In this document: positions 23,090 to 38,811 of the stretch, one piece after another | Layout: each line of letters begins with the position of its first letter | Numbering within the stretch: the stretch's first letter is position 1 | NCBI GenBank assembly: GCA_017440145.1 | Contig: JAFSHU010000002.1 | Coordinates: 1-38,811 of the forward strand | From: Bacillota bacterium | Lineage (GTDB): Bacteria > Bacillota > Dehalobacteriia > UBA4068 | DNA length: 38,811 nucleotides | Direction: 5' to 3' | The notes under the pieces: generated by a model | What the model was told of the DNA's origin: nothing | The model's input: only the letters and a program-made list of their open reading frames with translations | The model's database searches: none | Translations under genes and position numbers: made by a program

Positions 23090-23590
23090 ATGAGCGAACA
23101 CACTGATTGCTGCTTCTGTGCTGCCAACATGGACGAGCAGGCCAAGTACGAGCAGATCGCACAAGTGATCGATACGTACAAAGAAAAAGAGGGTAGCCTG
23201 ATCATGGTGCTGCACTCTGCACAGCAGATCTACGGCTACCTGCCGCTGGAACTGCAGAAATTTATTGCTGACCGGATGGGGCTTCCCCTTTCTGAAGTTT
23301 ATGGCGTTGTCAGCTTCTATTCCTTCTTCTCCATGACTGAGAGAGGCAGACATACCATCCGCATCTGCCTGGGTACTGCTTGCTACGTACGCGGCGGTAA
23401 AAAGCTGGTGGATGCTCTGGAAGAAAAACTCCAGGTGAAGGTCGGCGGCGTTACCGCAGATAAGAAATTCACCCTGGAAGTGGCTCGCTGCATCGGTGCT
23501 TGCGGCCTGGCTCCTGCAATCATGGTGGACAATGACGTTTATAAAACGATGAGCCCTGCTACTTTGGACAGCATGCTCAATCAGTATTAA
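23090..23590 (+). CDS. hydC: Electron-bifurcating [FeFe] hydrogenase, gamma subunit (NuoE-like)
   Basis: A 166-residue thioredoxin-like [2Fe-2S] subunit of the cytosolic trimeric hydrogenase. Known enzymes couple NADH and reduced ferredoxin oxidation to hydrogen formation, or use NADP. The cluster ligands are Cys93, Cys98, Cys134 and Cys138 (CLGTACYVRGG and CIGACGLAP), the classical NuoE spacing; MVLHSAQQIYGYLP and GVVSFYSFF precede them. The N-terminus has an extra Cys cluster, CCFC (residues 7-10), that is not part of the usual site and may be incidental. AGGGAGGT lies upstream. It is the first of three tightly spaced genes. Confidence 0.94.
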   Translation: MSEHTDCCFCAANMDEQAKYEQIAQVIDTYKEKEGSLIMVLHSAQQIYGYLPLELQKFIADRMGLPLSEVYGVVSFYSFFSMTERGRHTIRICLGTACYVRGGKKLVDALEEKLQVKVGGVTADKKFTLEVARCIGACGLAPAIMVDNDVYKTMSPATLDSMLNQY

Positions 23591-23606
23591 ACAGGAGGTG
23601 GAAAAT

Positions 23607-25478
23607 TTGGTTACCAAGATCAATTCTATCAATGACCTGAACCAGATCAAAGCGGCTTATGAAGCAGAATTGGGCAAATATAAGCATCAGATCCTTCTCT
23701 GCGCCGGCGCCGGCTGCATCTCCTGCGATTGCGGAAAAGTCCGCGATGCCGTCGTGGCTGAGCTGGAAAAACAGGGTTTGGCTGACAGCGTAAAACTGAT
23801 CGAAACCGGCTGCATCGGTACCTGTGCTCTGGGTCCCGTTGTTCTGATTCTGCCGGAGCGCACTTTCTATGTACAGATCACCCCCGAAAAGGTGCCTGCA
23901 CTGATCGAAAGCCATATCGCCAAGGGCGAAATCATGGAAAAATATACCTTCCAGGATAAGCTCACCGGCGAATTCATTCCCTGCATCGATGATATCCCCT
24001 TCTTCAAAGAACAGGTTCGCATCGCCCTGCGGAACTGCGGTGCCATCGAGTATGCTTCTCTGGAAGCTTACATTGCAAACGGCGGCTACTACGCTGCTGA
24101 AAAGGCGCTGACCTCCATGTCTGCCAAAGATGTGGTGGACGAAGTCAAGGCCTCCGGTCTGCGTGGCCGTGGCGGCGGCGGTTTCCCCACCGGCGTCAAA
24201 TGGGAAGCCGGCTATAATGCAAAAGGCGACCGGAAATTCATCGTCTGCAATGCGGACGAAGGCGATCCCGGCGCATTCATGGATCGTTCCGTCATCGAAG
24301 GCGATCCCCACAACCTGATCGAAGGTATGATCCTGGGTGGCTATGCCATCGGCGCTACCAAGGGTTATGTATACATCCGCGCCGAATACCCCATCGCTGT
24401 TGACCGTCTGGATGTTGCCATTGCCCAGGCCAGAGAAGCTGGTCTGCTGGGCGGCAAGCTCTTCGGCACGGATTTCGAATTTGATCTGGAAATCCGCATC
24501 GGCGCCGGCGCTTTCGTTTGCGGCGAAGAAACCTCTCTGATGGCCTCCATTGAAGGTCAGCGCGGCGAACCCCGCCAGAAACCGCCGTTCCCCTTCCAGA
24601 GCGGTCTCTTTGGTTGCCCCACCATCATTAACAACGTGGAAACCTTCGCCAACATCCCGGCCATCATTAAGGATACCGCTGCGGAATTTGCCAAAGTCGG
24701 TACGGAAAAAGCCAAAGGCACGAAGGTCTTTGCGCTGGCCGGTGATATTGTCAACTCCGGTATTATCGAAGTTCCGATCGGTACCCCCATGCGCCGCATC
24801 ATCTTTGATATCGGCGGCGGCATGATCGGTGGCCGTGAATTCAAAGCTGCCCAGGTCGGCGGCCCCTCCGGCGGCTGCATCACCAAAGAAAACCTGGATG
24901 TTCCCATGGAATATGATGCCCTGATCGCTCTGGGCGCTATGATGGGCTCCGGCGGCTTGATCGCCATGAACGATGAAACCTGCATGGTGGATACCGCCCG
25001 CTTCTTCATGGATTTCATTCAGGATGAATCCTGCGGCAAGTGCGCGGCCTGCCGTATCGGCACCAAACGCATGCTGGAAATGCTGATCCGCCTCACCAAG
25101 GGCAAAGGCGAGCCCGGCGATGTGGAACGTCTGCTGGAACTGGGCCAGGTGGTCAAAGATACCGCTATGTGCGGCCTTGGTCAGACTGCTCCCAACCCCA
25201 TCATCTCCACCATCAGCAATTTCCGTGATGAGTATGACGCACATATCGAAGACCATCGCTGCCCGGCCGGTGTCTGCCGCGCTCTGACCGTCTTTGAAAT
25301 CGATCCGCAGTCCTGCCTTGGCTGCACGCTCTGCGCCATCAACTGCCCCGTGAACGCCATCTCCGGCGAACGCAAATCCCCGCATTACATTGATCCTGCT
25401 CTGTGCATTGGCTGCGGCGTCTGCCGTGACAACTGCCGTCCGAATGCAATTCATCCGACCAAACGGGAGGTGCTGTAA
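23607..25478 (+). CDS. hydB: Electron-bifurcating [FeFe] hydrogenase, NuoF-like flavoprotein subunit
   Basis: A 623-residue flavoprotein where NAD(P)H is oxidised. Order of domains: an N-terminal thioredoxin-like [2Fe-2S] fold (Cys residues in CAGAGCISCDC and TGCIGTCALGP), the NuoF FMN/NADH domain with GLRGRGGGGFPTG (residues 184-196), NADEGDPGAFMDRSVIEGDP and CGEETSLMASIEGQRGEPR, a [4Fe-4S] site SCGKCAACRIGT, and two C-terminal [4Fe-4S] ferredoxin motifs (CLGCTLCAINCP, CIGCGVCRDNCRP). I chose TTG 23607, because AGGAGG (23593-23598) is at proper spacing; a GTG at 23598 overlaps that site. It lies 16 bp after hydC and 3 bp before hydA. Confidence 0.95.
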   Translation: MVTKINSINDLNQIKAAYEAELGKYKHQILLCAGAGCISCDCGKVRDAVVAELEKQGLADSVKLIETGCIGTCALGPVVLILPERTFYVQITPEKVPALIESHIAKGEIMEKYTFQDKLTGEFIPCIDDIPFFKEQVRIALRNCGAIEYASLEAYIANGGYYAAEKALTSMSAKDVVDEVKASGLRGRGGGGFPTGVKWEAGYNAKGDRKFIVCNADEGDPGAFMDRSVIEGDPHNLIEGMILGGYAIGATKGYVYIRAEYPIAVDRLDVAIAQAREAGLLGGKLFGTDFEFDLEIRIGAGAFVCGEETSLMASIEGQRGEPRQKPPFPFQSGLFGCPTIINNVETFANIPAIIKDTAAEFAKVGTEKAKGTKVFALAGDIVNSGIIEVPIGTPMRRIIFDIGGGMIGGREFKAAQVGGPSGGCITKENLDVPMEYDALIALGAMMGSGGLIAMNDETCMVDTARFFMDFIQDESCGKCAACRIGTKRMLEMLIRLTKGKGEPGDVERLLELGQVVKDTAMCGLGQTAPNPIISTISNFRDEYDAHIEDHRCPAGVCRALTVFEIDPQSCLGCTLCAINCPVNAISGERKSPHYIDPALCIGCGVCRDNCRPNAIHPTKREVL

Positions 25479-25481
25479 TTC

Positions 25482-27284
25482 ATGAACATTAAACTGACGA
25501 TTAACGGTATCCCCTGCGAAGCGCCTCAGGGCAGCACGATCCTGCAGGCTGCTAAGCTGAACGGTATCCATATCCCCACTCTGTGCTATCTGGAAGGCAT
25601 CCATAAATTCGGTACCTGCCGTATCTGCGTTGTTGAAGTAGAAGGCGCCCGCAATCTGCAGGCCTCCTGCATGGTGGAAGCCAAAGACGGTATGGTCATC
25701 CACACCAACAGCAAACGCGTCCGCGATGCCCGCAAGGTTATGTATCAGCTGATCGTTTCCGATCATAACCAGGACTGCCTGGCCTGCGACCGCAACCAGG
25801 ACTGCGAACTGCAGGCGCTCGGTCGTGAACTGGGTGTCACCGATAACCCCTATTACGGTGAAAAGAACGAAAACGGCATTGATATCAGTGAATCCGTCAC
25901 CCGTGATATGACCAAGTGCATCCTCTGCCGCCGCTGTGTCAGCGTCTGCAACAATATCCAGGGTGTTGGCGTTCTGAATGCCGAAAACCGCGGCTTCTCC
26001 ACCATCATCGCTCCTGCTGCCAACCAGCCTCTGGGCGCTTCTGACTGCGCTTTCTGCGGCCAGTGCACCGTGGTTTGCCCTGTTGGCGCTCTGAAAGAAA
26101 CCAGCCATCAGGAACGCGTTTGGGCCGCTCTCAATGACCCGAACAAATATGTCATCGTCCAGCCCGCTCCCGCCGTCCGCGTTGGCATCGGCGAATGCTT
26201 CGGCCTGGAACCCGGCACCAGCCAGACCGGCCGTTTGGTCACTGCTCTGCGTCGCTTGGGCTTTGATGATGTCTTTGATACCAACTGGGCTGCAGACCTG
26301 ACCATCATGGAAGAAGGCACTGAATTCCTCCAGCGCGTCAAGGCTGCTGTCACCGGCGGCAAAGCTGTTCTGCCCATGGCAACCAGCTGCTCCCCCGGCT
26401 GGGTCAAATTCATTGAAAACAATTTCCCGGATCAGCTGGGCCATCTGTCCTCCTGCAAATCCCCCCATATGATGATGGGTGCCGTTCTGAAATCCTACTA
26501 TGCGAAGAAGATCGGCAAGAAGCCGGAAGACATCTATGTCGTCTCCATCATGCCCTGCACCGCCAAGAAGACCGAAATCGCCCGTCCCGAAATGTACAAT
26601 GACGGCGTTCCGAATGTCGATGCAGTTCTGACCGTCCGCGAACTGGGCGATATGGTGAAATCTGCCGGTATCGACTTCCTGGCTCTGCCGGAAGGCGAAT
26701 TCGATTCTCCGCTGGGCATGTCCACTGGCGCAGCCGATATCTTCGGCCTCACCGGCGGCGTTATGGAAGCTGCTCTGCGTACCGTTTATGAAATCATCAC
26801 CGGCCGTGAGCTGCCCTGGCCCGATCTGCATGTTCCGCCCATCGTTGGTCTGGAGCAGATCAAGGAAGCTACCATCAAGCTGGAAGATGTGAAACCTGAA
26901 TGGAAGATCTTGGAAGGCTTCGAGGTCAACATCGCTGTTACCAGCGGCCTGGAAGGCGCCCGCATCATCATGGACCAGGTCAAAGCCGGCACCTGCAAAT
27001 ACCACTTCTTCGAAGTCATGGGTTGCCCCGGCGGCTGCATCACCGGTGGTGGCCAGCCCCGTCCGAAGGACATCTTCGAAGCCCGGAAAAAACGTATGGA
27101 AGCCCTCTATGCCGAAGATGAAGGCAAGGCTCTGCGTAAATCCCATGAGAACCCCGCTCTCATCGAATTCTACAAAGAATGGGGCGAACCCTGCGGCCAT
27201 AATTCTCATGAATACCTGCATACCCACTATGTACCCCGCGGCAAATACAATGACCTCACCGAAGAGACCTTCGTTGTAAAATAA
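25482..27284 (+). CDS. hydA: Electron-bifurcating [FeFe] hydrogenase, catalytic subunit
   Basis: A 600-residue hydrogenase with the H-cluster. N-terminal [2Fe-2S] domain (Cys35, Cys46, Cys49, Cys63), a His-Cys [4Fe-4S] site (His95, Cys99, Cys102, Cys108), two ferredoxin clusters (CILCRRCVSVC, CAFCGQCTVVC), then the H-domain: L1 TSCSPGW (301-307), L2 MPCTAKK (from 357), L3 FFEVMGCPGGCITGGGQP (about 509-526). L1 has Ser where many monomeric enzymes have a second Cys; I recall this variant from trimeric enzymes. The C-terminus HNSHEYLHTHYVPR resembles HndD-type subunits; there is no extra [2Fe-2S] domain as in some Thermotoga HydA. A GGGAGG site inside the hydB end drives it. Maturase genes are not in the window. 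Confidence 0.97.
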   Translation: MNIKLTINGIPCEAPQGSTILQAAKLNGIHIPTLCYLEGIHKFGTCRICVVEVEGARNLQASCMVEAKDGMVIHTNSKRVRDARKVMYQLIVSDHNQDCLACDRNQDCELQALGRELGVTDNPYYGEKNENGIDISESVTRDMTKCILCRRCVSVCNNIQGVGVLNAENRGFSTIIAPAANQPLGASDCAFCGQCTVVCPVGALKETSHQERVWAALNDPNKYVIVQPAPAVRVGIGECFGLEPGTSQTGRLVTALRRLGFDDVFDTNWAADLTIMEEGTEFLQRVKAAVTGGKAVLPMATSCSPGWVKFIENNFPDQLGHLSSCKSPHMMMGAVLKSYYAKKIGKKPEDIYVVSIMPCTAKKTEIARPEMYNDGVPNVDAVLTVRELGDMVKSAGIDFLALPEGEFDSPLGMSTGAADIFGLTGGVMEAALRTVYEIITGRELPWPDLHVPPIVGLEQIKEATIKLEDVKPEWKILEGFEVNIAVTSGLEGARIIMDQVKAGTCKYHFFEVMGCPGGCITGGGQPRPKDIFEARKKRMEALYAEDEGKALRKSHENPALIEFYKEWGEPCGHNSHEYLHTHYVPRGKYNDLTEETFVVK

Positions 27285-27320
27285 GTTCTCTTTGAAGAGA
27301 GAAGATTTGCTTTTGAACGC

Positions 27321-27358
27321 AAAAAGAGCGAAAACCCTTTTGGTTTTCGCTCTTTTTT
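27321..27358 (+). terminator. Strong terminator of the hydrogenase operon
   Basis: A perfect 16-bp stem (AAAAAGAGCGAAAACC and complement) with a 5-nt loop ends in a run of T. Its A-rich foot also makes it usable on the minus strand. Confidence 0.94.
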
Positions 27359-27430
27359 GTGTTGGCATATGATTTTTTGTTTCGGAGCAAGCAAAACAGC
27401 CCCTTTCCCGCATTTCGGATGAAGCTCTGC

Positions 27431-27655: not shown

Positions 27656-30600
27656 TTATAAGTCTCCGAAAAGGGAGAGCTGCACCTCTTTCGGTCGCTG
27701 CTTTCGTCCTTCCTCCACCCGCAGCAGCTCTTTCGGGATGGCCTCCACGAAGGGAGAGACCGGTTCCCCACCGCAGAGCACCAGCTCCCGGCCTGCACGG
27801 GTCATGCCCACATAGAAGAGGCGGCGCTCCTCTTCCAGGTTGCTTTCCAGTCCGGGGCGGCGCAGGGGCAGCAGGCCATCTCTTGCACCGCTCAGCAAAA
27901 CAACAGGATATTCCAGACCCTTTGCAGCATGCAGCGTCATCAGCGTTACGGCCTCGCTGCGATATATGCGTCCACCGCAGCGCCAGAGGTCGCCGTCCAG
28001 GCTGCTGCCGGCATCCTGCAGGAATTGTGTCAAATCATGATAAAGCAATGCCATTCCAAGCAGCTCATCCAGACCCGCTGCCCCTGTCAGCAGAGCATCC
28101 TGAATATAGCCTTCCAGCAGCCGGGCGGGGCTGGTCTTCTTTCGTTTCATATTATAATTTTTCAGCAGCTTGAGCCAGTCCTGCGTGGGCTGGGACAGGT
28201 CGTTCAGCTTGCCGATGCCCCGCAGCAGAGCAGCCATGTCCTTCGCAGGGCGCAGCGACAGGATCGATTCTATGTCTTCCTCCGGTAACTGTGCCTTCCG
28301 CAGACAGCAGGCCAGACGCAGCTGATCCCCGGGGGCTTCCAGCAGGCGGAAGAAGGAGAGAACGGCCTGCACCGCCGGGCTCTCCTGAAAATCCCCTTTC
28401 CCGGAGAGCCGGTAGGGAATTCCCTCTGTTTCCAGGCAATGGGCGAGGATCTCGGCCTGCTGATGGGTTCTGTATAAGACGGCTATGTCGTTTAAGCCAT
28501 ATTCGCCGCCGGATTTGCTGTGGGCGCTCAGCATATCCGTGCCACCGATCAAATGGCTGATCTCCTTTGCGATGGCGATCCCTTCGTTGAGCGGGCTGTC
28601 ACAGCGCAGCAAACGCACAGCTGGGCCTTTTTCTCCGTGGGCAGACAATTCTCCGCTGGCCGCCGGGAGTACATGAGCAGCCGCAGAGAGAATCTGCGGC
28701 GTGGAACGGTAATTGTCCCGCAGCCGGTGGATCTCCAGCTGCGGATAATCCTGCTGCAGGCGCTGGAAGCAAAGCGGATCTGCACCGCGGAAGCCATAGA
28801 TGGACTGATCCGGGTCACCGATCACGAAGAGGCTGCTTCCTCCTTTGCTCCAGGCTCGGATAAGCTGGTATTGCAGCAGGTCGATGTCCTGAAATTCATC
28901 CACCAGCAGATAGCGGAAAGCGCTGCGATCCGCATTTTCTCCTTCCGCTTCCTCCAGCGCATAGAGGAGAAGATCGTCAAAGTCCCAGGCGTTGTAGTTC
29001 TTTTGCAGCTGCTGGTATGCAGCAACGAGAGAAGGGGAATCGTTTTCTGCCGCTTCCCTGTTTTTTGCGCGGGAGACCTGTGCCAGCAGCTGCTTCACGC
29101 TGATGTCTGCCTTCTCCTTCTCCAGAACCTGCCGGGCCAGCTCCTGGCTGGTCTCGGCGTCCAGCAAATGTGGGGAAAGCCCGGCTTGTTTGGCCCGCTG
29201 CAGGGCAAGGCTGTGAAAGGTGCCGATATGCAGCAGCCGGGAGGCGGGGCCCACCTGATCTGCCAGGCGTTCCCGCAGCTCTCGCCCTGCCTTGTTGGTA
29301 AACGTGACCGCTGTGATCTCCTGAGGCGGGGTGCCTTGTTCGATCAGCCAGGAAATGCGGCTGACCAGGGTTCTGGTTTTGCCGCAGCCCGGCCCAGCAA
29401 TCACGGCCAGGGCAGGGGAAAGGGAGGTGGCGGCCTGGAGCTGGCTGGGGTTCAGGCGGATGCCTGCTTTCCCGGAAGGAGGGATTTCTTCTGAATCCGC
29501 TGCTGCTTCCAGGGGCTTCCCTGCTTCTGCCGGTTTTTCTGCCTTTGCCGGGAGAAAGCTCTGCCCGCTGAAAAGCGTGGCTTGTCCGTTGAGCCGGTCA
29601 ATATCCTCCGGGCTGAGAATGGAAACCTTGCCATATTCCCCATCATAGCCGGGGGATAATTCGATTTTGCCCTGGCGCAGGCGGTGAATGCTTTCTGCCA
29701 CGCAGGGGCCGGACAGGTGCTGAATATCCTCCAGAGGGGCTTCCCGCAGGATATAGAATTCCGGGCCCAGGCTCCGCAAAAGCTGCCTATAGATTTCCCG
29801 GACTTTTCCGCTGCCGGGTCCCACAGCAAGAGAAGCGCCGATCACTTCTGCCAAAGGAACCAGACTTTCGAAGGGGCGGGCGTTTTCCGGTTGGAAGCCT
29901 TCCTCCCGGTCTGCCAGCTCCTCCACCCGATGGGCCACACCCAGTGTCAAGGGCTTTCTGCAGACCGGGCAGAGGCCTTGCCGGGCGATTGTCTCCTGCG
30001 GGGAGAGGCATTGCTTGCAGTTGCGATGGCCGTTGAAGTGGTATTTCCCTTCTGCCGGGAAAAATTCAATGGTGCCTTGAAAGGCTGAGCCATCCCGATC
30101 CTTTAAGGCAGCCAGCAAATGGGGGTAGCTCAGCTCACAGCGGAAAAGATTCGCTTCCCGGCCCAGCTTATCCGGGGAATGTGCATCGGAATTGGAAACC
30201 AGGGTGTAGCGATCCAGCTGGGAAAGCCGCCAGTTCATAGGCGGATCGGAGCTGAGGCCGGTCTCCAGGGCCCAGATGTGGGCTGTCAGGTCTTCGAAGC
30301 ATTCCTCGATGCTGTCAAAGCCCGAATAGGCACCCAGAACAGAGAAGTGGGGCGTCCAGATATGAGCCGGAATGAAAATGGCATCCTCGCAGCAATCCAG
30401 ACTCATTTCCAAAAGATCCCGGCTGTCCAGGCCGATGATGGGGCGGCCATCGGAGCGAAGATTGCAGCCCAGCTTTTCCAAACGCTGGGAGAGCCGCTCT
30501 GCTGCCTCCAAGGAGGGCAGGAGAATGACATTATGCACCTTTCTGGTTCGTCCGTTTTTTTTATAGATTGAGCTGATCTCCCCGCTGAGGATAAAGCGGG

Positions 30601-30847
30601 GCCTTAGCCGATCCGCAGCTACACCGCTATCCGGTATGCGAATATCCTCTTTCAGGCGATACAGGCCTTCCTCTGCGGGTTCCAGGCTTTCCTGCAGCAG
30701 CTGCCGCCAGGCCAGGTGGGTAAAATCACCGCTGGCCACCAGGTGAATGCCCTTCCGGCGAGCACTGGCCTCCAGCTGAACCGGGAGCAGATCCCGGCTG
30801 GTGGCCCGGGAATAGGCAGAATGTATGTGTAAATCAGCGATGAACAT
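27656..30847 (-). CDS. Endonuclease Q-like PHP nuclease fused to a UvrD/Rep-family helicase
   Basis: A 1063-residue two-part repair protein. Residues 1 to about 410 look like the TIGR00375/EndoQ family, which nicks DNA at deaminated bases: metal motifs DLHIHS (5-10), GDFTH (40-44), GEIS (89-92), HNVILLP (105-111), PAHIWTPHFS (160-169), NSDAHSP (219-225), and a zinc finger (CKQC 277-280, CPVC 293-296). After a Pro/Glu/Ala-rich linker (about 430-460), residues 466-1063 are a superfamily 1A helicase: Q-motif LNPSQLQAA, Walker A AGPGCGKT (485-492), LLVDEFQDID with Walker B near 648-655, GDPDQSIYGFRGAD, DNYRST, LMTLHAAKGLEYPVVLL and VGMTRAG. The helicase is apparently intact. AAGGAGGA precedes the ATG, and a near-perfect promoter lies upstream. 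Confidence 0.93.
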   Translation of the reverse strand: MFIADLHIHSAYSRATSRDLLPVQLEASARRKGIHLVASGDFTHLAWRQLLQESLEPAEEGLYRLKEDIRIPDSGVAADRLRPRFILSGEISSIYKKNGRTRKVHNVILLPSLEAAERLSQRLEKLGCNLRSDGRPIIGLDSRDLLEMSLDCCEDAIFIPAHIWTPHFSVLGAYSGFDSIEECFEDLTAHIWALETGLSSDPPMNWRLSQLDRYTLVSNSDAHSPDKLGREANLFRCELSYPHLLAALKDRDGSAFQGTIEFFPAEGKYHFNGHRNCKQCLSPQETIARQGLCPVCRKPLTLGVAHRVEELADREEGFQPENARPFESLVPLAEVIGASLAVGPGSGKVREIYRQLLRSLGPEFYILREAPLEDIQHLSGPCVAESIHRLRQGKIELSPGYDGEYGKVSILSPEDIDRLNGQATLFSGQSFLPAKAEKPAEAGKPLEAAADSEEIPPSGKAGIRLNPSQLQAATSLSPALAVIAGPGCGKTRTLVSRISWLIEQGTPPQEITAVTFTNKAGRELRERLADQVGPASRLLHIGTFHSLALQRAKQAGLSPHLLDAETSQELARQVLEKEKADISVKQLLAQVSRAKNREAAENDSPSLVAAYQQLQKNYNAWDFDDLLLYALEEAEGENADRSAFRYLLVDEFQDIDLLQYQLIRAWSKGGSSLFVIGDPDQSIYGFRGADPLCFQRLQQDYPQLEIHRLRDNYRSTPQILSAAAHVLPAASGELSAHGEKGPAVRLLRCDSPLNEGIAIAKEISHLIGGTDMLSAHSKSGGEYGLNDIAVLYRTHQQAEILAHCLETEGIPYRLSGKGDFQESPAVQAVLSFFRLLEAPGDQLRLACCLRKAQLPEEDIESILSLRPAKDMAALLRGIGKLNDLSQPTQDWLKLLKNYNMKRKKTSPARLLEGYIQDALLTGAAGLDELLGMALLYHDLTQFLQDAGSSLDGDLWRCGGRIYRSEAVTLMTLHAAKGLEYPVVLLSGARDGLLPLRRPGLESNLEEERRLFYVGMTRAGRELVLCGGEPVSPFVEAIPKELLRVEEGRKQRPKEVQLSLFGDL

Positions 30848-30933
30848 AAATCCTCCTTGGAAAAGCTGCCTTTCTTGCTGTGATTTTGTGAAAGGAGTTC
30901 GCCGGTGCAGCCAGGCCGGCTTGCTTCGGCTTC

Positions 30934-30962
30934 AGTATATTTGTTTTTCTTTTTTCTGTCAA
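30934..30962 (-). promoter_or_regulatory. Near-consensus promoter of the EndoQ-UvrD gene
   Basis: Minus strand: TTGACA, 17-bp spacer, TATACT (11 of 12 consensus bases). The -35 box touches the end of the hairpin that follows the upstream ApgM-like gene. Confidence 0.82.
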
Positions 30963-30990: not shown

Positions 30991-31782
30991 TTACTGGCCG
31001 GGGATGCAGTCGAATTGAAAATCGCACTGATATTTTCCGCTGAAACGCTGCATCAGCATGGGCCCGGCAGATAAAAAGAGTCCGCTTTCTGCTGCAGCCT
31101 TCTCGTTGAAGGAAGGAGTGCTGGGGCTGCCGTCCCGGCCGCTGCGGTAGATGAAAAAGGGGACAGCTGCGCGGCAGGGCGCATTTTTTCCGGAAGATGC
31201 GGCATAGCCCGCTGTCAGCAGAAGGCTGTAGGGCCTATTCTGCGCATTCAATTCCTGCAGGAGCGGCTGGAGGAAATCCCGATCCATGGCTTCGATGCAG
31301 GAAATTTTTTCTCTGCGGCACTGAGCCTTTGCTGCTTCGGAAAGATGGATGCAAAGAAGCGTATAGCCATCTGCCAAAGCCTGCAGGCTGGCCTGTACTT
31401 TACGCTGATAGCCTTCTTCTATCGTTTCTTTTTTCTTTTCCACAGAGATATAGTGCAGCGCAGCGGCCTCTGCCAGAGGCTGCAGTTCTTTTTCTGCGGA
31501 GATCAGGGATCCGCTGAAGCCATAGAGCTGGCGCAGGGGATCGAGCCTCTCCGCTATGCCCTGGACGCAATATTTTTCCGGGGCGTATCCCAGTGTGGAG
31601 AGCAGCGCAATGCGGCTGTCCACCGGCAGTTCTGCAGGGATCGTGCGGACCAGGCCTACCTCTGCGCTTTGAGCCAAGCTGTCCATATTCGGCGTGTGTG
31701 CTGCCTCTAAGGGCGTGGGCTCCGTTTCCTTCGGCTGCAATTCTTCAGCCATTGCTGCTGCGAAGATAAAAATATGTTTCAT
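30991..31782 (-). CDS. ApgM-like phosphoglycerate mutase relative, shortened and lacking metal ligands
   Basis: A 263-residue protein related to cofactor-independent phosphoglycerate mutases of the archaeal ApgM type, which are normally about 400 residues. Retained blocks are TPLEAAHTPNMDSLA, VGLVRTIPAELP, a Ser56 at the nucleophile position followed by ALLSTLGYAP, and the late K-x-x-x-IEAMD-x-x-x-x-PLL helix. Lost are the first metal Asp (GDGMAD is AAAMAE here), the DEAGH motif (SEAAKA here) and the DH motif of the C-terminal metal site (TAGYAAS here). The middle domain is mostly missing. It is therefore probably a pseudoenzyme, not obviously a pseudogene: the frame is intact and GAGG precedes ATG 31782. 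ApgM relatives near threonine/lysine genes are sometimes proposed homoserine kinases; here it is divergent from lysC. Confidence 0.75.
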   Translation of the reverse strand: MKHIFIFAAAMAEELQPKETEPTPLEAAHTPNMDSLAQSAEVGLVRTIPAELPVDSRIALLSTLGYAPEKYCVQGIAERLDPLRQLYGFSGSLISAEKELQPLAEAAALHYISVEKKKETIEEGYQRKVQASLQALADGYTLLCIHLSEAAKAQCRREKISCIEAMDRDFLQPLLQELNAQNRPYSLLLTAGYAASSGKNAPCRAAVPFFIYRSGRDGSPSTPSFNEKAAAESGLFLSAGPMLMQRFSGKYQCDFQFDCIPGQ

Positions 31783-31892
31783 GCTTTCCTCTTTTCTGCA
31801 AAATATCGGGTTTGAGAAGATTTTCCTGCTTTGCGACAGAAGCATTAAGACCAGGCTTTTCCCGCGGCCCTGCCCGGAAAGATTCTTGCTAC

Positions 31893-33787: not shown

Positions 33788-36700
33788 ATGAAGAAATTAC
33801 GCATGAGACACTACTGGATGTGGTCAATTTTAATCGTGGTGGCCGCGATTTTTGCAACGGCTGTGCATTTTGGCCTGCCCGCCGCAGAAGCCGATTCTCC
33901 GGCAGCCACAAGGATCTCCGACCCCTCCACATTGGATGCATGGAAGGATTTCCTGGGTGAAAATGTGACCAGCACAGCCAATGCAGGGCTTGTCTGGATG
34001 GATAAGACCGTCCTTACCGATAATACGGAGCTGCCCCTGGTTACGATGACAGACCCAGAGAATAACTTCCTGGTTGCGCTCTCTGCCATTGCTTCCAACA
34101 AATCCATCACGGGCTATTCCCATATCCCCACGGATACCATGCTGGTGCTGGATATTTCCCGCTCCATGGGTCCCAATACAGAAGATGGGGATAACAACAA
34201 CGATGCGGTGGATGAGCTGGTATCCGCGGCAAATGCTGCCATTTCCCGCTTGCAGGCGGTCAATAACTATAACCGCGTGGGCGTTGTGCTCTATTCCGGC
34301 AACTATACCACCAATAGCACTGCGGATTATGGGGATTCCATTCTGCTGCTTCCCTTGGGCAGATACAGCCACGAGACCGATACTTATCTGGTTCGGGACA
34401 GCCAGACCTTCCGCGTGGGAGATAACAATGTAACAGCCCAGAGCGTTAAGGTGAACAATAACGTCTATAATGGCTCTCAGGATATGCCCCAGTCCGAGCG
34501 TGAGGTATACGGCGGCACCTATATCCAGGGCGGTATCTATCGTGCGATGCAGGCATTTCTGGATGTAGAGGATACCACCATTGAAGGCACCGGCTTCCAG
34601 GCCGGCACCAAGAGAATGCCGATCATGGTGCTGATGAGCGATGGCCTGCCTACCATTGCCACCAACAATTATATGGGCAGCGCCGGCAGCATCGGCACCT
34701 CCAATATGGGTGACGGCGGCACCCCCTCGGGTTATCTGGCCTCTGCCATTCCTTTCGTGACCCAGCTTACCGCTTCCTATGCCCGGGAGAGAATCGAGGA
34801 GCATTATGATCGTTCCTCCCTCTTCTATACCCTGGGCTTCAAGGTGGATGATTCCCCTGTTTTGGATCCCTCTGTCTCGAATTCTGCGGTTCTGGGCCAT
34901 TGGTCTACTTATAATAATACTGCTGCCAATGCCACTATGCAGCTTGCCGTCGGCCAGCGCTGGGTAGAGGGCGGCTGGTGGGGCCAGAGCGGCCATTATG
35001 AAACAACCTATACCAGCATTGCGAAGAGCAGCTATGATCTTTCCCGGGATTATGTAACTCAGTATTTTGATGCGGACTCTTCTCTGGCAGATGCATTCCG
35101 TGCCATCGTAGATCAGATCATTTTCCAGTCTCTCTATACGCCCACCCTGGTGGAAGGGGGCGATTCTGCCTTCGGCGGGTATCTGGAATTTATCGATGAT
35201 ATCGGCCAGCACATGGAAGTGAAGGATATCAAGGGCATTCAGGTTGCTGATACGCTCTTCACCGGTGCCATGCTTACCAGCAATTTGGGTGTTGGTTCCC
35301 TGGGTACACCGCAGAACCCCACCGATCTGGGCAATGCGATGATCGAGGCTGTTCAGACCCGTTTGGGCATTGCGGATATTCAGACTGCAGATAAGCTGGT
35401 TGCGGATGCTTACCATGCCGGTCAGCTGGCTTATGATCCCGTTACCGGCGAATTCAGCAATTACATCGGCTGGTACGCGGATGCAGATGGGAATTACCTG
35501 GGCTTTGCCTCCGATGAAACCGATCCTGTGCCCGGTGCGGTTTATTCCTGCAAATCCTACGGCTTCCTGGGGGAAGTGTTGAACGGCCACGCTGCCAGTG
35601 ATATGATGTTTGTCTCCGTCCAGGTGCGTACCAATCTGGCAAACGGAAACTCCGCTGTTCATTACAGAATTCCTGCTTCCCTGATCCCGGTAGTTTCCTT
35701 CAATGTCTCTCTCACCGGCACCAGCCTGGAGGATCCCGGAGCCATCACCCTGGAATACAATGACGAAGTTTCTGTCGATACGGATAATGATGGCGTTTAT
35801 GATACCACAAAGCAGATTACTCCGCTGCGCCTGATCTATGAGGTCGGTCTTTCTTCTGAGATCAACGAGCGGAATGTGGCAGAGATCGTGGGTTCCTCCT
35901 GGGAATATCAGGAGGATGGCGTTTATTCCTTCTACACCAACCGCTGGGATGTGAACGATTTGGATCATGCCCATCCCTTCCTGGCAAAAAATACGGTTGC
36001 CCATTTTGAGCCCTCCCATGAAAATGAGCGCTATTATTACACGGAAAACTCCGTTGTTTATGAGCTGGTGGGCGGCAATTATGTTCCTTATACCGGTGCG
36101 GAGAAGCCGGTTTATGCGGCAGGCAAATATTTCCGCGCCTATTCCGTGTTCGAAAAGAGCAACAGCGTAAGCGAAGGCAATGCAACGATGCACCTGGTTT
36201 ACGAAGCGATCTCCCAGACCTCTTTGGAGAAGGCGCTTCCCGATGTGGAGGAGGATGAAAGCCCCAGCAGCAGCACGACCTGGTACATCCCCAAAGGCAC
36301 GATCTTCCTTACTCTGGAAGATTACTATCTGCCCAAGGGCGAATTCACCGATGAGACCCATACTGCTGTAACGGGCAACAATACGGATTCTTTGATTTAT
36401 GCGCTTTACCCCTCCGTGGATCACCATGAGGATGACCCTGCTACTACGGAAAACGAAGAGCATTACTATGCCGACGGCATCCTGGGGAATAACGGCCGCC
36501 TGAGCCTTACTGCAGCCCAGGGCCTGAAGATCACCAAGGCGCTGGATGCCACCATGATCGGCCGGACGGATATTTTCACCTTTGAGATCACGCCGCAGAA
36601 TGCAGCGGCTGTTGCCGGCGAATACCGCCTGCAGATCGTGGCGGCTGACGGAACGGAGACTGAGCAAACGCTGACCTTTGATTCCGGCTCTGAAACGGTA

Positions 36701-38811
36701 GAGATTAAGGCCGGGGAAACGGCCTGGCTGCTGGATCTGCCTGTGGGCGCTGTGTATAATGTCAAGGAACTGACTACCGGCAAGGATTATCAGGTGGCGG
36801 CTGTGAATAACGAAGCTGTTCAGGAGATTGATCTTAGCATCAGCCAGGGCGTGATTGAGGAAGCAGCCTTCCTGAATACCCTGAAGCCTCCGGTAAGTAC
36901 CGGCACCCTGGTTCTGGAGAAGCTGGTGGAACACCCCTTTGGGGATGCTTATGAAAGCACTGTTGACAGAGAATTTACCTTTGATTTGAGCTTCACTCCG
37001 CCCGGCGGCGGTACTCCCACGGAGGATACGGTCACCCTGCATGCAGGGGAGACGGCTTTCTTTGATGAGATAGAAGTGGGTACCGTTGTCAGCATTACAG
37101 AAACCACCATCCCTGATGGCTTCACCTCTGATGCTTCTAATGACGGGGATACCAAAACCATCACCATCGAAGGGGAAGAAAACTACCTCGTAGCTTTCAC
37201 CAATACCTATGAACCCAGCAGGGTTTCCCCGGAGCATGTGAATCTCACCGGCGATAAGAGCTTCACCGGCCGCGAAGGCGATGAGTGGCTGGATACGGAT
37301 GAATTCACCTTCAAGCTGCAGAAGCGTGTCGGCACCGCCTGGGAAGATATGCAGATGGATGACGGCGCGGGCGGAACGATCACCGCAGAAGCCACTGTCA
37401 ACAAAGAGAACAAAACCTTTGATTTCAGCGCCTTTATCCGGGCCGAAAACTATGACCATGTTGGCACCTATTCCTATCGTATCGTAGAAGTATTCACCGT
37501 TAATCCCTGGTTGGGCATTACCTATGACGAGGCTGTACGCTGGCTGGATATTCTAGTCCTGGATGAGGACATGGACGGCCAGCTGGAGATCGCATCTGTC
37601 GAGGGCTTTAACGGTATGGATGTGGAGAGTGACGATGCAACGGGCGTCACCGTCTGGGATGCCAACGCCACCTTCTATAATACCTACGCACCGGCCGGCA
37701 GTGATGCCATCAGCCTTGTGGTAAATAAGCTGATCGAGGATCAGACCGTGGAGGATCAGGAGGAAAGCCTGGTTTCCAAAGCGGGCTATCTCTTCGGCCT
37801 CTATCAGGGCGATGATCTGCTCATGGAGCTGCCTGCCACCTCCGGCGCTGGGGAAAGTCTCATTACCCTGACCTTTGGTAGTGCGGATATTGGCCAGACC
37901 ATTGAATACATCCTGAAGGAGATTATTCCTGAAAATGCCGAAGATCGGGTTCCCGGCATTCAGTACAGCAAGCAGGAATATTACATTACTGTTGAGGTGG
38001 AGGATGATACCCTGGGCGGCGTGACCGCCACGGTAACGGCTCTTGAAAATGCGGATGGCGCTGTGGAGAGCACCGGCGAGGAAGTAACGGTCGCTTTCAC
38101 AAATACCTATGCCCCCGCACCCGTGGAACTGGGCGGCAGCAAAACGCTGGTGGGTGCGGAAATCAGCGATGGCGTATTCACCTTTGAGCTTTATGATGCC
38201 AATGGTGCAGCACCCGCTTTGATGGACAGCGAAACCAACACGGGCGAAAGCTTCAGCTTTGATACCTTCTGGCTGGATCAGCCTGGAGACTATCACTATA
38301 TTATCAAAGAGAAAGCTGGCGATGACCGGAATATCCGCTATGATGATACTGAATACGCTGTCACCGTTACAGTTACGGAAACAGATGGCGTTTTGAGTGC
38401 AGCTATTTCCGTTGAAGACGATTTGCCGATTGCTTTCACCAATACCTACGTTCCGGATCCGGACGACATCACCGTAGACATCACCGCGAAGAAGACGGTG
38501 CAGAATCTGGGTACGAAGGAAATCGGCCCTGAAGGCTTCGAATTTGTGCTGAAGGATATTGCCGAGGGCGGCAGCGAGCTGAAAGAACGCTCCGATGAAG
38601 CGGGTCTGGCAGAGTTCCAGCTGAGCTATAGCTGGGAAGACATTGGCAAGGTCTTCAACTACACGCTGACGGAAACGGACGAAGGCGCAAACCATGTTAC
38701 CTACAGCGATGCCAGCTACGATATCTCCGTAGCTATCACGCTGGACGAAGTGAACAACAAGCTGGTCGCAACCATCACCAAGGACGGCACTCCCGTGGAA
38801 GAAGTTGTGGC
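33788..38811 (+). CDS. Very large secreted adhesin with VWA domain and Cna-B/pilin-type repeats (3' end outside window)
   Basis: An open frame of 1674 codons still running at the window end. The start has a signal peptide (MKKLRMRHYWMWS, hydrophobic core to about residue 30, likely cleavage after PAAEA), with GGAAAGGAAG upstream. A von Willebrand A domain follows, with the MIDAS motif DISRS (Asp122, Ser124, Ser126) and MSDGLP (Asp285). A middle region (about 455-895) is unassigned. From about residue 900 come repeated beta-rich blocks ending in NTY or similar: FLNTL near 36880, FTNTYEP near 37200, FYNTYAP near 37677, FTNTYAP near 38100, FTNTYVP near 38440. They resemble Cna-B/Spy0128 isopeptide domains (for example FTFELYDANG, YHYIIKEKAGDD). 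It is probably a surface adhesin or tip pilin; an anchor such as LPXTG would lie past the window. Confidence 0.88.
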   Translation, partial: MKKLRMRHYWMWSILIVVAAIFATAVHFGLPAAEADSPAATRISDPSTLDAWKDFLGENVTSTANAGLVWMDKTVLTDNTELPLVTMTDPENNFLVALSAIASNKSITGYSHIPTDTMLVLDISRSMGPNTEDGDNNNDAVDELVSAANAAISRLQAVNNYNRVGVVLYSGNYTTNSTADYGDSILLLPLGRYSHETDTYLVRDSQTFRVGDNNVTAQSVKVNNNVYNGSQDMPQSEREVYGGTYIQGGIYRAMQAFLDVEDTTIEGTGFQAGTKRMPIMVLMSDGLPTIATNNYMGSAGSIGTSNMGDGGTPSGYLASAIPFVTQLTASYARERIEEHYDRSSLFYTLGFKVDDSPVLDPSVSNSAVLGHWSTYNNTAANATMQLAVGQRWVEGGWWGQSGHYETTYTSIAKSSYDLSRDYVTQYFDADSSLADAFRAIVDQIIFQSLYTPTLVEGGDSAFGGYLEFIDDIGQHMEVKDIKGIQVADTLFTGAMLTSNLGVGSLGTPQNPTDLGNAMIEAVQTRLGIADIQTADKLVADAYHAGQLAYDPVTGEFSNYIGWYADADGNYLGFASDETDPVPGAVYSCKSYGFLGEVLNGHAASDMMFVSVQVRTNLANGNSAVHYRIPASLIPVVSFNVSLTGTSLEDPGAITLEYNDEVSVDTDNDGVYDTTKQITPLRLIYEVGLSSEINERNVAEIVGSSWEYQEDGVYSFYTNRWDVNDLDHAHPFLAKNTVAHFEPSHENERYYYTENSVVYELVGGNYVPYTGAEKPVYAAGKYFRAYSVFEKSNSVSEGNATMHLVYEAISQTSLEKALPDVEEDESPSSSTTWYIPKGTIFLTLEDYYLPKGEFTDETHTAVTGNNTDSLIYALYPSVDHHEDDPATTENEEHYYADGILGNNGRLSLTAAQGLKITKALDATMIGRTDIFTFEITPQNAAAVAGEYRLQIVAADGTETEQTLTFDSGSETVEIKAGETAWLLDLPVGAVYNVKELTTGKDYQVAAVNNEAVQEIDLSISQGVIEEAAFLNTLKPPVSTGTLVLEKLVEHPFGDAYESTVDREFTFDLSFTPPGGGTPTEDTVTLHAGETAFFDEIEVGTVVSITETTIPDGFTSDASNDGDTKTITIEGEENYLVAFTNTYEPSRVSPEHVNLTGDKSFTGREGDEWLDTDEFTFKLQKRVGTAWEDMQMDDGAGGTITAEATVNKENKTFDFSAFIRAENYDHVGTYSYRIVEVFTVNPWLGITYDEAVRWLDILVLDEDMDGQLEIASVEGFNGMDVESDDATGVTVWDANATFYNTYAPAGSDAISLVVNKLIEDQTVEDQEESLVSKAGYLFGLYQGDDLLMELPATSGAGESLITLTFGSADIGQTIEYILKEIIPENAEDRVPGIQYSKQEYYITVEVEDDTLGGVTATVTALENADGAVESTGEEVTVAFTNTYAPAPVELGGSKTLVGAEISDGVFTFELYDANGAAPALMDSETNTGESFSFDTFWLDQPGDYHYIIKEKAGDDRNIRYDDTEYAVTVTVTETDGVLSAAISVEDDLPIAFTNTYVPDPDDITVDITAKKTVQNLGTKEIGPEGFEFVLKDIAEGGSELKERSDEAGLAEFQLSYSWEDIGKVFNYTLTETDEGANHVTYSDASYDISVAITLDEVNNKLVATITKDGTPVEEVV

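Follow-up and report, generated by a model that had tools for sequence, protein, structure and literature searches.

What does a bacterial enzyme do that joins, in one polypeptide, an Endonuclease Q (EndoQ)-like nuclease to a UvrD/Rep-type helicase? Published descriptions place EndoQ mainly in archaea and only sparsely in bacteria, and a gene of this design, apparently unstudied so far, lies in the stretch of 38,811 nucleotides from a Bacillota contig that was analysed here (JAFSHU010000002.1, hereafter the window). In the papers naming EndoQ that were searched, which cover part of the literature, the EndoQ-helicase fusion is unreported; it may have been mentioned in other papers, and its architecture may already be catalogued in domain databases. 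A sequence-only reading of this DNA had described a single frame of 1063 residues, and the frame is uninterrupted, running from an ATG start through 1063 codons with no internal stop (Table 1). A scan of 84,980 species genomes returned 463 relatives, the best 80 of which were examined as loci, and 71 of these have one frame of more than 950 residues that holds both parts. With the unbroken frame found again in so many of the best contigs, the fusion is neither a product of chance nor an assembly error; a sequencing or frameshift artefact is ruled out, and the unreported frameshift between the halves that the earlier reading had named as a way to be wrong was not found.

Table 1 Features of the EndoQ-UvrD fusion gene and its start signals (positions count from the first letter of the window)
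Feature	Position	Strand	Basis
EndoQ-UvrD fusion gene, 1063 codons	27656..30847	-	Single open frame; homologues alike in length and architecture
EndoQ-type nuclease part, residues 1-416	29600..30847	-	PfuEndoQ E 4e-48; TM 0.89; mapped residues
Zinc finger H274-C277-C293-C296	29960..30028	-	Aligned to PfuEndoQ C249/C252/C268/C271
Clamp-binding-type motif 1, QATLF, residues 422-426, start of disordered linker	29570..29584	-	Conservation, disorder, consensus
Flexible linker, residues 427-461	29465..29569	-	pLDDT under 50
SF1A UvrD/Rep-like helicase, residues 462-1052	27692..29464	-	PF00580 + PF13361; motifs Q to VI; fold
Clamp-binding-type motif 2, QLSLF, residues 1056-1060, disordered C-terminal tail	27668..27682	-	Conservation, consensus
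Ribosome-binding site AAGGAGGA	30851..30858	-	Direct sequence reading
Sigma-70-type promoter-like site TTGACA-17-TATACT	30934..30962	-	11/12 consensus matches

The nuclease part is composed of a PHP catalytic domain, a zinc finger and a C-terminal EndoQ domain. Residues 4-416 match PfuEndoQ in sequence searches and the N-terminal half matches TIGR00375 in HMM searches (E 1e-52), with no Pfam model matching the EndoQ part. The PHP catalytic residues of the window protein are D5, H7, H9, E90, H105, H162, E195, D221 and H223; D6, H8, H10, E76, H84, H139 and E167 of PfuEndoQ and its SDAH motif are identical in it and invariant in 71/71 fused proteins, which bears out the earlier claim that all visible PHP metal motifs are in place. 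The base-selecting pocket (H139/G169/S171 in PfuEndoQ, H162/G197/S199 in the window protein) is likewise invariant in the 71 fused proteins. In PfuEndoQ, E76, H84 and H139 are essential, and the pocket for U/Hx is given its shape by H139, G169 and S171 (review PMC8307549). We predict that the EndoQ part nicks 5' to dU and dI and probably also to AP sites. The zinc finger announced by the sequence-only reading is present, but not with four cysteines as in PfuEndoQ: it reads His-Cys-Cys-Cys, and as the His at the first ligand position (H274) is invariant in 71/71 fused proteins, zinc binding is likely retained in an altered form. The TIGR00375 score (179.8 bits) lies below the curated cut-off of 326.6, itself a narrow one, passed by no more than 2 of the 213 genomes of the window's phylum that match. 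Thus, the window protein is EndoQ-like by sequence and fold and, by strict membership, a distinct branch, owing to the zinc-finger change and the score below the cut-off.

The C-terminal half matches UvrD-helicase (PF00580, E 9e-56) and UvrD_C (PF13361), both above cut-off, and the UvrD-type match extends over residues 465-1027 in HMM and sequence searches. The SF1A motifs Q, I, Ia, Ic, II, III, IV, V and VI are all present, as expected of the complete SF1A helicase that had been claimed, and Walker A, Walker B, Y713, R714 and R1017 are invariant among the fused proteins. The fusion thus shares with UvrD, Rep and PcrA all motifs, the overall fold and a similar IV-V-VI spacing, but it stays well under their NCBIfam equivalog thresholds (PcrA, 297.6 bits vs a cut-off of 911.2; Rep, 295.8 vs 951.5; UvrD, 249.1 vs 1144.5), and its genome also has a separate PcrA. 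Motifs IV and V are 259 residues apart, near the 284 of this PcrA, so that the 2B subdomain is almost full size, whereas a much reduced tail of 45 residues follows motif VI, vs 128 in this PcrA: the fusion is without the long C-terminal extension of PcrA and has a clamp-type motif at its end instead.

With an alignment of 64 rows from the fused family as input, AlphaFold2 gave a model with a mean pLDDT of 88 and two clearly disordered stretches (422-461 and 1053-1063). Foldseek searches of the PDB with this model match PfuEndoQ (5zb8_B, target TM 0.89, rmsd 2.8 Å), including its dU-DNA complex (7k30), as well as UvrD (4c2t, target TM 0.71), with UvrD, PcrA and Rep at a target TM of about 0.6-0.7. 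Set against 5zb8, the EndoQ fold spans the PHP, zinc-binding and C-terminal domains; the lack of this fold, which the sequence-only reading had named as grounds for abandoning it, is therefore not what the model shows, and domain searches and structure prediction together confirm both the EndoQ and the UvrD-type half. The mutual placement of the two halves is not fixed by the model (pTM 0.60).

A nuclease paired with a UvrD-like helicase is also the design of Gabija, and the helicase half does match GajB models (best E 1.2e-71); a role against uracil-containing phage DNA has moreover been suggested for bacterial EndoQ (review PMC8307549). An anti-phage protein attacking phage DNA with uracil or unusual bases nevertheless appears very improbable to us, given that PcrA/Rep models outscore GajB (297 vs 240 bits), the neighbours in the window are metabolic and not defence genes, no defence neighbours recur in the 80 loci, no copies were found in plasmids or phages, and the gene sits in a dnaN neighbourhood in seven contigs. 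Its neighbours, its absence from plasmids and phages and its better match to PcrA/Rep led us to reject a defence system; unlike in Gabija, the partner of the helicase is an EndoQ domain on the same chain and there is no sign of a defence setting.

The fusion is not rare. Fusion-type EndoQ occurs in 62/399 sampled genomes of the window's phylum (about 150 of the 399 have only stand-alone EndoQ, typically of 390-450 residues) and in several other phyla, and cultured carriers include Christensenella, Eubacterium callanderi and Anaerostipes. In deep lineages the EndoQ and helicase parts are encoded by neighbouring genes on the same strand; this holds for seven loci, in MAGs or genomes that bear the labels Omnitrophota, Nitrospirota, Patescibacteria, Bacteroidota, Pseudomonadota and Myxococcota. 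A tree of the EndoQ part gathers fused and paired forms in one clade (support 100/100), apart from the clostridial stand-alone forms and with a branch of 2.45 between it and stand-alone EndoQ, and the paired forms branch inside this clade. One locus (L042) looks split; it has a single in-frame stop where the two parts meet, and the tree places it among the fused proteins. The phylogeny that had been proposed as a gauge of the spread of the fusion thus finds an architecture that is widespread and old, and the assignment to EndoQ and UvrD/Rep is supported by the fold, the conserved catalytic and pocket residues and the wide conservation of the fusion. The simplest reading would be that an ancestral gene pair became fused, either once or on two occasions (the tree leaves the count unsettled). 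In four genomes (G043, G288, G308 and G328) fusion-type EndoQ occurs twice, in a fused gene and in a shorter frame of ~440-470 residues.

The earlier reading overlooked two clamp-binding-type motifs, one at the junction and one at the C-terminus. The clamp consensus has been given as QL[S/D]LF or QxxLF (PMC12309361) and as Q-phi-x-[L/M][F/L] (PMC13254535), and a conserved motif of the QL[S/D]LF or QxxLF type in a flexible segment, the mark of a sliding-clamp client, is found in the fusion. Q422 at the junction is kept in 68/71 fused proteins, though the linker between the halves varies, and at the C-terminus Q1056 is kept in 70/71 and F1060 in 65/71. Strict consensus matches are seen at 43/72 junctions and 53/72 C-termini, members off the consensus being mostly near variants such as QLSFF; for the strict pattern, the 71 fused proteins hold 24 junction and 48 C-terminal motifs vs ~2 and 0.6 from shuffling. 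Such a C-terminus is present in only one of 473 background ORFs (those flanking the relatives), and it is absent from the genome's own PcrA, as is a clamp-type motif from the stand-alone EndoQs examined. In the paired lineages, the EndoQ proteins end in NQLSLF, TQLKLF, GQITMF and similar, and the helicase proteins in QLSLF, QITLF, QLNLF and similar. Were these motifs decoys, with independent domains and with linker and tail motifs serving another partner or none, members with near matches only (QLSFF, QMSFL, EKYLLF) would be easily accommodated, but not the retention of both motifs across phyla in otherwise variable segments, their numbers far above shuffling, their rarity in the background or their place at matching ends of both proteins in paired-gene lineages, and we hold this explanation to be quite unlikely.

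We consider instead that the two conserved motifs suggest a fusion that operates on the sliding clamp. Archaeal EndoQ binds PCNA through a C-terminal PCNA box (KD 55 nM), which raises nicking and is needed for PCNA stimulation (PMC4858679), and the motifs of the fusion would be its parallel by analogy; for the clamp of B. subtilis, a canonical QLSLF peptide has no more than micromolar affinity (PMC12309361). The 80 loci show no general conserved operon partner; the only one is dnaN-gyrB, the fusion gene being divergent to dnaN, followed by gyrB, in seven Desulfobacterota-type contigs (L053, L057, L069, L070, L072, L077 and L078), which may represent one ancestral arrangement.

The distribution of uracil-DNA glycosylase (UDG) bears on the substrate. 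In the window's phylum, UDG is missing in 18/62 genomes with fusion-type EndoQ vs 21/337 others (p=1.4e-6), counted over genomes that are not independent of one another; within the same draw of 399, it is missing in 15/151 genomes with stand-alone EndoQ only and in 6/186 with neither type (fusion-type vs neither, p 7e-8). In the window's class, a UDG-family gene is missing in 7/11 genomes with the fusion vs 1/32 without it (p 7e-5). The 18 UDG-less fusion-type genomes are spread over 12 families, and on stratification by family the association is weak (p 0.03) and is carried by the window's own family; the absence of UDG from the window's own genome is suggestive only, as this genome is 84% complete. 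General gene loss was examined as a reason with EndoIV, which shows no bias (missing in 8/62 fusion-type genomes vs 39/337 others, p 0.83), and the Endonuclease V gene is uninformative on this point since it is absent from all 43 genomes of the window's class. Loss of UDG is no universal companion of the fusion, as 25/29 genomes with a fused or paired form outside Bacillota retain it. It can fairly be said that, in some lineages of Bacillota, the fusion allows or goes along with the loss of UDG, and in some Clostridia-type bacteria the fusion may take the place of the enzyme that usually repairs uracil.

This retention of UDG by most carriers outside Bacillota would also suit a nuclease part that has drifted to another lesion, a mismatch or a branched structure, the fusion then being a general excision or replication-fork enzyme. 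Given the score below the TIGR00375 cut-off and a clade far from stand-alone EndoQ, the substrate range could have shifted, and the His for Cys replacement touches a zinc finger that helps to form the base pocket. However, all checked pocket and catalytic residues are unchanged and invariant, and carriers in this phylum preferentially lose UDG and not EndoIV; thus, we regard a drift of this kind as unlikely.

Helicases of the UvrD type translocate in the 3'-to-5' direction and are able to begin at nicks. EndoQ cuts on the 5' side of a deaminated base, so that a 3'-OH is left behind and the downstream strand carries the lesion at its 5' end (PMC4357722, PMC8307549); one scheme put forward by the discoverers of EndoQ has a helicase act after this nick (PMC4357722). 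We postulate that the fusion is probably a clamp-tethered nick-and-unwind enzyme that excises deaminated bases, and we infer its substrate, clamp binding, order of steps and direction of unwinding as follows. The EndoQ part would flip out the deaminated base (uracil or hypoxanthine, and probably abasic sites too) and nick 5' to the lesion, leaving a 3'-OH, whereupon the attached 3'-to-5' helicase would load at this nick, the undamaged strand being its most useful track, and move along this intact strand away from the 3'-OH. The lesion-bearing strand would thereby be displaced, stripped off from the 5' end that bears the lesion while a polymerase extends the 3'-OH, and flap removal and ligation would complete the repair. 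The two flexible clamp-type motifs, one behind each enzymatic part, would keep the protein on the clamp at sites of replication or repair synthesis and may hand the site over to a clamp-bound polymerase, a clamp loaded at 3'-OH ends holding both the fusion enzyme and the polymerase. The coupling of nicking to displacement proposed by the sequence-only reading, though a prediction, fits the fold, the residues, the conservation of the fusion, the adjacent-gene versions and the anticorrelation with UDG in the phylum; its "self-contained" repair machine is too strong, as the clamp-type motifs suggest use of the clamp and a polymerase and ligase would still be required. That this single chain, recognising, nicking and unwinding from the clamp, replaces UDG-initiated base excision repair in several Bacillota lineages is a bolder proposal that we put forward only tentatively.

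Compared with Endonuclease Q itself (PfuEndoQ, PDB 5zb8 and 7k30; TIGR00375), the fusion has in common the fold of the entire N-terminal 416 residues, the catalytic and base-pocket residues, a zinc finger and a sliding-clamp motif just behind the nuclease domain (a PCNA box in archaea), and differs in the attached helicase, the bacterial type of its clamp motif, the first zinc Cys replaced by His, the separate deep clade and the score below the cut-off. AddAB, RecBCD and AdnAB also combine an SF1A motor and a nuclease in one enzyme, and RecB has a clamp motif as well (PMC13254535), but theirs is a RecB-family end-resection nuclease, whereas that of the fusion is PHP/EndoQ-type and predicted to be lesion-specific. 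The fused and paired forms represent a second, helicase-coupled EndoQ lineage in bacteria, present in the window's phylum and in several others. If the proposed function is true, they would let bacteria deal with deaminated bases without a glycosylase, operating from the sliding clamp as a bacterial counterpart of archaeal EndoQ-PCNA, and would help to explain how some genomes survive without UDG. The fusion also makes the question of what follows the EndoQ nick directly testable with one protein.

The strong promoter ascribed to the gene stands as a sequence match (30962-30934 on the minus strand), and AAGGAGGA upstream of the gene reads as a strong ribosome-binding site. With an apgM-like gene on its upstream side and a hydrogenase gene converging on it from downstream, the fusion gene is probably transcribed on its own. 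The upstream neighbour (30991-31845, minus strand) encodes a short apgM/homoserine-kinase-like protein; its 284 residues align with both ends of ~400-residue models but not with their middle, and it may be a shortened or decayed member. On the downstream side, the plus-strand ORF 25482-27284 is an iron hydrogenase; a 1278-residue ORF at 23577-27413 (minus strand) lies opposite this and the plus-strand ORF 23598-25478 and is probably an antisense shadow. At the far end of the window, a plus-strand frame of at least 1674 residues (33788-38809) runs off the window end; judged by eye, it resembles a secreted surface protein of large size in which a von Willebrand A-like region is accompanied by repeats of pilin-type domains. 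No family matched convincingly for the long minus-strand ORFs 33830-37459 and 37553-38695, which appear to be antisense shadows of this frame.
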